The notes under the pieces were generated by a model. That model was not told where the DNA came from, ran no database searches, and saw only the letters and a program-made list of their open reading frames with translations. Shown in pieces: positions 31,815 to 35,580 of a DNA stretch of 47,443 nt; within the stretch, counting starts at the first letter, position 1, and each line of letters starts with the position of its first letter. Origin of the DNA: Clostridiaceae bacterium (GTDB taxonomy: Bacteria > Bacillota > Clostridia > DSM-8532); NCBI GenBank assembly GCA_012521615.1, contig JAAYMA010000050.1:1-47443 (forward strand), read 5' to 3'. The position numbers and the translations under genes were made by a program.

Positions 31815-32028
31815 TTCATCAGTAAGCAGGAATTTTATTCTTTGCATCTAATGAATAATTATGTTACATCAGTTTAAAAATAATAGAAGTTAAATGAACG
31901 TTTGTCCCTGATAACTAATATGATAATATAATAAAACAAACAAAGGTAGCGGTTGTAATAAATCGATGAAAAAATCTTTTCAAGTTGTTTAAATTATATA
32001 AAATTGTTATGTCTGACATATTGTTCTA

Positions 32029-32057
32029 TTGAGAGAGCAAACATGATATGCTATAAT
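32029..32057 (+). promoter_or_regulatory. Strong extended -10 promoter of the ncRNA
   Basis: TTGAGA (32029-32034), a 17-bp spacer, and TATAAT (32052-32057) preceded by TGC, making a full extended -10 box. Transcription is expected from about 32064. Confidence 0.8.
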
Positions 32058-32063
32058 TAAGTC

Positions 32064-32298
32064 AGAAAAAATCCTGAAATGTGCGTGGTGCCTTTATTTT
32101 GAACCTGCTATGTTTGATACGGGAGCCCGGAGTTTGTATACGTAGCACAGGCCGCAATCTAATACCATCGCAGCTCGCTGCGACTGGCGGCGGAAGTGTG
32201 AAATATACAACAGGGCACCCACCTGGTGGAGCGCCAGGTGTCAAAATGGGCAAACGGCATTTTGGGAGGAAGGCTGCTCAGAAATGGGCAGCCTTTTT
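32064..32298 (+). ncRNA. Structured non-coding RNA, candidate 6S RNA
   Basis: A transcript of about 235 nt between a strong promoter and a terminator, with no convincing protein. The outer stem pairs GTGGTGCC (about 32084-32091) with GGGCACCCAC (about 32213-32222). Inside are a CCTGCTATGT / ACGTAGCACAGG stem, a GCCGC / GCGGC stem and the hairpin CGCAG-CTCG-CTGCG. Downstream hairpins are CACCTGG/CCAGGTG (32220-32240) and CAAAATG/CATTTTG (32242-32264). A long rod closed by an outer stem with internal bubbles resembles Firmicute 6S RNA, which would bind sigma-A RNA polymerase. That name is from recall of shape and sequence feel, not an alignment. RNase P, tmRNA and SRP RNA signatures are absent. 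Confidence 0.55.
32270..32298 (+). terminator. Rho-independent terminator of the ncRNA
   Basis: GGCTGC (32272-32277) pairs with GCAGCC (32288-32293), extended by A-T pairs, followed by TTTTT. Confidence 0.87.
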
Positions 32299-32306
32299 GG
32301 TATCAA

Positions 32307-33293
32307 TTATTTCTGAGTATTAGCTGTTTCCAATATCTCGTTAATTACTATTTCAGGTTTATATAAATGAATGTTTTCGCCTGTATCGCTTACTTCGATC
32401 ATAGTTGCATGGGGGGACAATGATAAAATATCTTTCGACATTTCCTCGAATATCCTTCCAAGCTGGCGCGCAGAGTATTCTGATGCACCATTTTGAACCC
32501 ATTCCCTTATCAGAAATTCAATGGAGGTGTTGAGAATTCTAAGAGGTATGGGCGGAAAGTCAGGGTTTTTTAATTGGCTTATGTTACTCATAAATTCTGC
32601 CAACTCGGCCTGAACGGTTTTATGGTTCTCAATTCTCAAATAGTGCTCTACAATATATTTTTTATACTTTTTATCAGGGTTATAGCCCTTAAAGGGGCTA
32701 AAAATTCTATAAACTCCTTTTGCAGCATTTTTTGCCTTAATTTGCGCCAATTCAAAAATATTGCTGCAATCCTCTTTCTCGTTCACATTTTCCAGCCAAG
32801 ATTCATATTCAAGGGGAGGGGGATTGATAAAGACTGCTCCGGCCACCTTTTCCGGTCTTGTCAGGGCAAAGTAAGCGGAATATATTACTCCGGTTCCGTT
32901 TGATACCAGGTAAACTGGCTTGTCAACACCCTCAGAATTTAATATGGAATCAAGTTCGGCGCAAATGCCTTCTAATGTTTTGGGACTGTCATCTTGTGTG
33001 CTCCATCCGTACCCGCTTCTGTCATAAGTAATTATTCGGAATTTTTGCTCTAAAGCGTCCTGAATGGACCACCATTCAGCCTGAGAACCTCCTATGGCAT
33101 TTATGACAACAATGGTGTCTCCTTCGCCTTTCACACGCATAAAAATCTTTTTTCCGTTTATATCAACCAATTTGCCTTCCAGGGGCGGATTTTTAAACCA
33201 CTTTGTATTGATCCTGAAACTTAAATAAATAAAAATGCAATAGGATGCAATCATTAAAGCGGCACATATCAAGATATAAAATAAAGGTTTCAT
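32307..33293 (-). CDS. Alpha/beta-hydrolase-fold protein, probably catalytically dead, membrane anchored
   Basis: The N-terminal membrane anchor is at about residues 4-27, followed by an alpha/beta-hydrolase domain with YDRSGYGWS, a typical family block. At the nucleophile elbow the sequence is LVSNGTGV, so Gly133 stands where GxSxG enzymes have Ser. Near the end, TGENIHLYKPE has Glu306 where relatives have the catalytic His (GHxIHLxKPE). I checked both codons on the complementary strand (GGA, GAA). This suggests a binding or structural role rather than hydrolysis. GGAG is 9 bp before the ATG. It converges on the ncRNA terminator. Confidence 0.8.
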   Translation of the reverse strand: MKPLFYILICAALMIASYCIFIYLSFRINTKWFKNPPLEGKLVDINGKKIFMRVKGEGDTIVVINAIGGSQAEWWSIQDALEQKFRIITYDRSGYGWSTQDDSPKTLEGICAELDSILNSEGVDKPVYLVSNGTGVIYSAYFALTRPEKVAGAVFINPPPLEYESWLENVNEKEDCSNIFELAQIKAKNAAKGVYRIFSPFKGYNPDKKYKKYIVEHYLRIENHKTVQAELAEFMSNISQLKNPDFPPIPLRILNTSIEFLIREWVQNGASEYSARQLGRIFEEMSKDILSLSPHATMIEVSDTGENIHLYKPEIVINEILETANTQK

Positions 33294-33388: not shown

Positions 33389-34495
33389 TTAAGGTTTTAA
33401 CAGTCCTCTTATGGTATTTTCTAAAAACTCTATACGGTTTTCCAGCTCTCTGATCCTTACATAAATCAAATCATGATTTTCACCGGAGCTTTGTTTACGG
33501 GCAGCAAGTTTATTTATATCAAAAGGAAAACTCAGACCATTTCCAAACAGCATCGGGGTAATATCTGATTTAAAGAAAGTATCTTCTGTATGTGTTGATT
33601 GAAATTTGCATTTTAGCGGTATATCACGTCCGGTAAGATCTATTTTGGATTCAGCTTCAACTTTTGAGCAATCCTGCTTTATTGCAGAAACTACAAATGC
33701 GTTTTTCAGCGTACGAATCACATAGGGCGCATTTCTTACAGCAATTAAGCTGTCGCTTCCGGGACCTACAGAAACATTGAAAACTTCAAGACCTTTGGAG
33801 AATTTGTTAAGTATGGTATCATACCTGAATAATAACGTTTTCCCATCGCTTTCTTCCAATGAGGCAAGTACATAAACCGGCCCGTTTTTGCATGCCACTG
33901 CCTGCAGAATATGGGAATCGTTATATGGAAAAGGTGTAGTGACAGGCTTGGAAAATTTGCCGTCAAATATACTTCTGTGTACAAGAAGATTAACGTTTTG
34001 AATGTTTGTTACAAAAAATATATGTACAGTATAGCCGTCTGAGCACACGGCATAGTTTTTAGCGTCCCTTACTATGACACCCTCGACCTCGGGCATGGTG
34101 TATGCTGTTCCTTCCAGCCTCTGGTATGTAAGCAGCTGTCTTCTGTTATGATTCACAATATAGAAAATATGAATTTTTCCGTCTGCTCCAGCCATTCTTA
34201 CACTGTATGGTGAACTTCCGCAAATACGGCTTTCGAGAAGCACTACAGGCTCTTTTTTTTCTTCACCGACCGGCATATAAATAAGTCTGTCCATATAATC
34301 AACATAACAAGTGCTGATATTGTCATCTGAATCTATTAATGCGGAAAAATCAGCCACAGCACTGTCTGAGATCAGAAAAGGCGGGCCCCATTTGTTACCA
34401 TCCAGCATACTCAAATATATGCCATTTTTATACCATATACACGTAATTATGCCCATGCTGTTTTTAAGTATATATCTCAGATTTTTAAGAGACAC
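33389..34495 (-). CDS. Uncharacterised beta-propeller-like protein with C-terminal coiled coil
   Basis: I do not recognise a named family. The 368-residue protein has repeating beta-rich units of about 45-50 residues with motifs such as DGKIHIFYI, DGYTVHIFFV and NGPVYVLAS, which suggest a BNR/WD-like propeller over residues 1-270. A linker follows, and the last 30 residues (IRELENRIEFLENTIRGLL) form a coiled coil that may oligomerise. There is no signal peptide or membrane segment. GTG 34495 follows GGGAAGTGGGAA. It is transcribed away from the Cys-rich gene across a 248-bp gap and ends at a terminator. A spore or cell-surface role is possible but unproven. Confidence 0.6.
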   Translation of the reverse strand: MSLKNLRYILKNSMGIITCIWYKNGIYLSMLDGNKWGPPFLISDSAVADFSALIDSDDNISTCYVDYMDRLIYMPVGEEKKEPVVLLESRICGSSPYSVRMAGADGKIHIFYIVNHNRRQLLTYQRLEGTAYTMPEVEGVIVRDAKNYAVCSDGYTVHIFFVTNIQNVNLLVHRSIFDGKFSKPVTTPFPYNDSHILQAVACKNGPVYVLASLEESDGKTLLFRYDTILNKFSKGLEVFNVSVGPGSDSLIAVRNAPYVIRTLKNAFVVSAIKQDCSKVEAESKIDLTGRDIPLKCKFQSTHTEDTFFKSDITPMLFGNGLSFPFDINKLAARKQSSGENHDLIYVRIRELENRIEFLENTIRGLLKP

Positions 34496-34743
34496 TTTCC
34501 CACTTCCCTTGTACTGATGGTTCCAATATAAAAAAATGATGGTACTTTATTTCAATTTAATGTATCAACCTGTACCCCTGAAAAATAGATCTATATTGCA
34601 GCCAGATTTATACTGTTTAAAAGGTTTATCACTATAATGCTATTTATGTCCCGGAATGAATATGACCACTGTAACCAATTCATTCAGAAGGCATATTATG
34701 TCAATGTGAAGGCAATTATTCTGTGAAATGGAGGACCGATATA

Positions 34744-35580
34744 ATGGGCTGCAAAGATCAAATCGTTCCAGGACTTATAGGCGGCGAAGACATATGCAAG
34801 CTACGGGAAGCCGTTTGTGTTCATGTAGAAAAAGTATATGACAATTGCCGTGAGAAAGATTGCATTGAAGATGCGGTAGTAGATTTTGTTGATAATGTAC
34901 AGGACCTCATTCAAAATGCGGTTAAGGTAAAAACAAAAGATGCAGAAGTTGTGGCAGTATTGGCTGATCTTGAAGATGTTCCTTTTAAGAGAGGCTTCTT
35001 TACTGTCAATGTACGCTATAAAATCCGTGTGGCAGTTGAATTCTGCTATAAGGACGTAACAGGAAAACTTGTTAATTCTTCTCCTAAGATTGGCTATGTA
35101 TGGTTTTCCAAGACGGTCATACTCTTTGGTTCAGAAGGCAAGATAAAAATCTTCAGAAGTGTTGATCCGTCCAGTGCTCTGCCAGTCCAGTGTGAAGGAT
35201 GTAACGACGGATGCGGCGGATTAGTTGAACAAGATAATCTCCCGATAATTAAAGTTGAGGTAGCGGAACCTCTGGTTCTTAACACCAGAATTAAGAGAGT
35301 ACATGAAAAACGCCACTGCGGATGCGATGATGACAGTAGTGAGGTCAATGCTATTATTGGGCCGCAGAGAAGAGTGGTCGTTACAATCGGCTTATTCTCG
35401 ATTATCAAACTTGTGCGCCTTGTACAGCTGCTGATACCTGCATTCAATTTCTGCTATCCTGATAAGGAATGCATAACTTCTACAGATGAAAATCCTTGCG
35501 ATGTCTTTGATACTATTGAGTTTCCGCTGGATCAGTTCTTCCCTCCACAGAAATTTGAATTTCCGAGGGATGACGACTGA
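34744..35580 (+). CDS. Cysteine-rich clostridial protein, possibly spore-associated
   Basis: A 278-residue protein opening with MGCKDQIVPGLIGGEDICKL. I recognise it as a recurrent clostridial family without a firmly assigned function. More than ten Cys are spread through it, including CEGC, CGC and CYPDKEC. The central part is beta-rich (FFTVNVRYKIRVAVEF, KTVILFGSEGKIKIF). There is no signal peptide. High Cys content and distribution in spore-formers suggest a coat or exosporium component, as inference only. ATG 34744 has GGAGG 9 bp upstream; an in-frame GTG at 34723 is less likely. A hairpin and a palindromic repeat follow. Confidence 0.65.
   Translation: MGCKDQIVPGLIGGEDICKLREAVCVHVEKVYDNCREKDCIEDAVVDFVDNVQDLIQNAVKVKTKDAEVVAVLADLEDVPFKRGFFTVNVRYKIRVAVEFCYKDVTGKLVNSSPKIGYVWFSKTVILFGSEGKIKIFRSVDPSSALPVQCEGCNDGCGGLVEQDNLPIIKVEVAEPLVLNTRIKRVHEKRHCGCDDDSSEVNAIIGPQRRVVVTIGLFSIIKLVRLVQLLIPAFNFCYPDKECITSTDENPCDVFDTIEFPLDQFFPPQKFEFPRDDD

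Follow-up and report, generated by a model that had tools for sequence, protein, structure and literature searches.

The locus and its surroundings

The window, a stretch of 47,443 nt of clostridial DNA, carries on its forward strand a match to the 6S RNA family that is flanked by a promoter and a terminator (Table 1). The -35 element TTGAGA (32029-32034) and the -10 element TATAAT (32052-32057), the latter preceded by TG, form the best promoter site of the region with 11 of 12 consensus positions, and both hexamers are conserved across the genus and the family in the aligned relatives for which upstream DNA is available. At the other end, the predicted folds show a hairpin GGCTGCTC-agaaat-GGGCAGCC followed by TTTTT, and members of the genus have a comparable terminator hairpin, some with different yet complementary arms. 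A simple scan for terminators did not pick up the one at 32270-32298, probably because such a scan lengthens the stem into the A/U pairs; the predicted fold shows it. A preliminary description of this DNA had proposed both an extended -10 promoter and a terminator, and the former is confirmed by its consensus matches and its conservation in relatives, the latter by the hairpin and U-run in the folds and by the comparable hairpins of the genus.

Convergent to the 6S gene lies, at 32307-33293 on the minus strand, a gene of the alpha/beta-hydrolase fold (Abhydrolase_1). Relatives of this gene (33-54% identity) adjoin 6S in most members of the genus and in several of the family, so that the neighbourhood is partly conserved. 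The upstream segment 29759-31814 holds, in order, a tetrapyrrole-methylase-family gene, a small Usp-domain gene on the minus strand and a HAD hydrolase, an order that recurs in two relatives (L050, L051). The 6S gene of lactic acid bacteria is flanked by rarA and uspA (PMC8414754). Two long open frames on the far side of the hydrolase gene, 33389-34495 (-) and 34723-35580 (+), gave no Pfam match at E 0.001.

Table 1. Features of the 6S RNA locus, in window coordinates
Feature	Positions	Strand	Description
Sigma-A type promoter	32029-32057	+	TTGAGA, 17-nt spacer, extended -10 TG-n-TATAAT
Predicted primary 6S transcript	32065-32298	+	Inferred from fold, promoter and conservation; start about 7-8 nt past the -10, end in terminator U-run
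6S RNA core	32068-32272	+	Full-length RF00013 match
Closing stem, 5' strand	32072-32085	+	Partner 32255-32267; compensatory changes at 32077-32079
P2 (downstream helix), 5' strand	32096-32105	+	Predicted pRNA template; partner 32237-32247; Rfam consensus structure
Central bubble, 5' side	32106-32120	+	From constrained refolding
Predicted pRNA start	32108	+	Template C, hence GTP-initiated; placed by alignment with B. subtilis 6S-1
Apical arm	32121-32217	+	Starts GGGAGCCC...GGGCACCC; inner helices; consensus fold with compensatory changes
3'-central-bubble hairpin	32220-32240	+	First of two hairpins set apart in the preliminary description; 99.5% of cells paired
P2, 3' strand	32237-32247	+	GGUG part overlaps the 3'-bubble hairpin
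Closing stem, 3' strand	32255-32267	+	Partner 32072-32085
Intrinsic terminator	~32270-32298	+	Predicted folds; comparable hairpins in genus members

Identification and distribution

When the whole window was scanned against all 4227 Rfam families, the 6S RNA covariance model RF00013 was the sole match above threshold. It reached 79.7 bits, where the gathering score is 46.4, with an E-value of 3.4e-14, and it spans the full model, 1-187 of 187 positions. A rescan of 31850-32450 at a permissive threshold returned no further match of note besides one to a CRISPR-repeat model at 31872-31895, which at 22.9 bits against 42 (E 0.65) and in AT-rich sequence was judged to be due to chance. The preliminary description had tentatively named a 6S RNA and, failing that, an undescribed abundant RNA; the scan against RF00013 and the full library, which it had suggested, bears out the first of these and excludes the second.

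The search for 6S genes covered the present genome and those of 60 relatives; of these 61 whole genomes, 55 carry the gene, as do 46 of the 48 that are of good quality. This genome (2.2 Mb, 99.94% complete) has one copy only; a second paralogue was looked for in it and not found, whereas B. subtilis has two 6S genes. Among the class-level relatives, G052 (L002/L046) and G042 (L047/L048) have two 6S matches each, against one in the others, and these pairs may be paralogues, as 6S-1 and 6S-2 are in B. subtilis, or else the product of a mixed assembly.

Structure and covariation

The predicted transcript (32065-32298) has a minimum free energy of -99.6 kcal/mol. Shuffled versions average -73.3 (sd 4.6), which gives z = -5.7, and none of 200 shuffles was as stable as the native sequence. 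We aligned the window gene with those of 30 relatives (13 genus members, 16 family members and one order-level relative) and found the extended -10 promoter, the closing stem, the central bubble, P2, the apical arm and the 3'-bubble hairpin to be conserved in the resulting 31 sequences. Nineteen of the 44 pairs in the consensus fold show pair-keeping changes on both sides, which is the compensatory covariation among relatives that had been proposed as a check. Paired cells make up 99.0% of the closing stem, 91% of the lower part of P2 and 100% of its upper part, while the tip of the apical arm (32165-32184) varies between lineages. The long helices and the outer stem closing the molecule, which had been read from the single sequence, are upheld by this degree of pairing and by the stability of the fold.

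Alternative readings

The RNA has 205 positions compared with the 187 of the Rfam consensus, owing to a larger apical arm (34 nt in a hidden loop segment against the model's 8), and on this ground one might take it for a structured RNA of an undescribed kind that resembles 6S RNA without being one. Such a reading is made very improbable by a full-length RF00013 match well over the curated threshold, by the finding of the gene across the class with the same model, and by the presence of all 6S landmarks; the consensus structure of closing stem, P2, central bubble and apical arm is the same here as in RF00013, and the longer arm stays within the range of the family. Nor does the region behave as a riboswitch leader or as a gene for a short protein. 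Frames of 80 aa (+, 32081-32323) and 63 aa (-, 32062-32253) are indeed open in the window, but the former has an in-frame stop in 30 of 30 relatives and is without a Pfam match, and the latter is not kept in relatives, in agreement with the earlier view that about 235 nt here hold no credible gene. As for a leader, the terminator sits between the RNA and the next gene, which is itself oppositely oriented. A coding or leader function thus has a vanishingly small probability.

Two hairpins (32220-32264) had been described as foreign to the 6S rod, and they would suit a 6S-derived RNA to which 3' hairpins conferring a second function had been added. A strong hairpin does exist at 32220-32240, but it lies inside the RF00013 match, is fully paired in 30 of the 31 sequences, and has counterparts well outside the family: all 14 of the 6S RNAs taken from beyond it have a strong hairpin at the corresponding place, which in 13 of them reads ACCUGn...nCAGGU or differs from this only slightly (in the remaining one, L016, a different hairpin ranked first). 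A 3'-central-bubble hairpin forms in B. subtilis 6S-1 RNA when free, and Firmicute RNAs of the 6S-1 type are predicted to have one too (PMC8876501); the canonical 6S structure described for lactic acid bacteria includes a hairpin that faces the 5' bulge (PMC8414754). The hairpin at 32220-32240 is this known element of Firmicute 6S RNAs. The second, 32242-32264, was rejected as a real hairpin, being fully paired in only 3 of the 31 sequences and having a probability of about zero in the predicted ensemble. It is a chance fold-back of the 3' strands of P2 and the closing stem, and the A-rich and U-rich strands of these helices account for the 71.9% of its cells that are paired nonetheless. With one hairpin known from Firmicutes and the other unconserved, an added second function is highly unlikely.

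Predicted pRNA and release

As a 6S RNA, the molecule belongs to a widespread class of small RNAs that mimic an open promoter and occupy the housekeeping polymerase, from which they are released once the polymerase copies them into a short pRNA (PMC8876501). The pRNA predicted to be read from C32108 is 5'-GCAGGUUCAAAAUA, and the 5' end of the antisense pRNA predicted opposite that base is 5'-GCAGGUUCAAAA. The template motif UUGAACCNNC (UUGAACC, two bases, then C) occurs in 31 of 31 sequences, C32108 itself is invariant, every sequence has GG at pRNA positions 4/5, and U7-A12 reads UCAAAA, in 30 of 31 or with slight variation. The predicted template aligns with that of B. subtilis 6S-1 RNA, and the predicted pRNA with the B. 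subtilis 6S-1 pRNA GUUCGGUCAAAACU, reported as 5'-GUUCGGUCAAAACUA (PMC12005410); the two pRNAs both begin with G and carry UCAAAA at positions 7-12; the GG falls at 5/6 there as opposed to 4/5 here, and both placements are reported to be typical (PMC8414754). The GG, U7-A12 and GTP start of the predicted pRNA match features reported as hallmarks in B. subtilis and in lactic acid bacteria (PMC8414754, PMC12005410).

By analogy with the family, the rod with its central bubble would imitate an open promoter, bind the sigma-A RNA polymerase and block it under nucleotide scarcity, and on a nutrient upshift the polymerase would transcribe the template from C32108 into the short pRNA. According to the folding predictions, pRNA synthesis would open P2, whereupon the distal 5' bubble would pair with the freed 3' strand of P2 and the RNA would be released. 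Under constrained refolding, the distal 5' bubble (32113-32120) can pair with 32238-32245 to give a predicted central bubble collapse helix, and blocking 14 nt of the template leads to this helix in the predictions for the window gene and most members of the genus. It is predicted in only 20 of the 31 sequences, which counts against the favoured explanation. Both the 3'-bubble hairpin and the top of P2 draw on a single GGU strand, for which they compete, and an overlap of this type has been described for E. coli 6S RNA; since the overlapping pairs are invariant, covariation speaks neither for nor against it. Release in this clostridial lineage may conceivably combine an E. coli-like strand overlap with a B. 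subtilis-type collapse helix, a scheme that we regard as rather unlikely.

Conclusions

The 3'-central-bubble hairpin, the predicted GTP-initiated pRNA and the predicted collapse helix liken this RNA to B. subtilis 6S-1 (BsrA; PMC8876501, PMC12005410), from which it differs in its longer hairpin (7 pairs) and in the GGUG strand shared with P2. By its description it can also be likened to the 6S RNA of Clostridioides difficile (RCd3), expressed and abundant at about 200 and 175 nt, as a clostridial 6S RNA with its own sigma-A promoter (PMC3649979). This clostridial locus is almost certainly a 6S RNA gene (ssrS) of the ordinary kind, with a sigma-A promoter and a terminator of its own and, presumably, the established 6S mechanism. 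As an unremarkable member of a family already known, it leaves our knowledge of 6S RNA unchanged; what is gained is that the gene is now cleanly annotated in this genome and its relatives, together with an alignment of clostridial 6S RNAs that allows predicted pRNA starts and the 3'-bubble hairpin to be compared.
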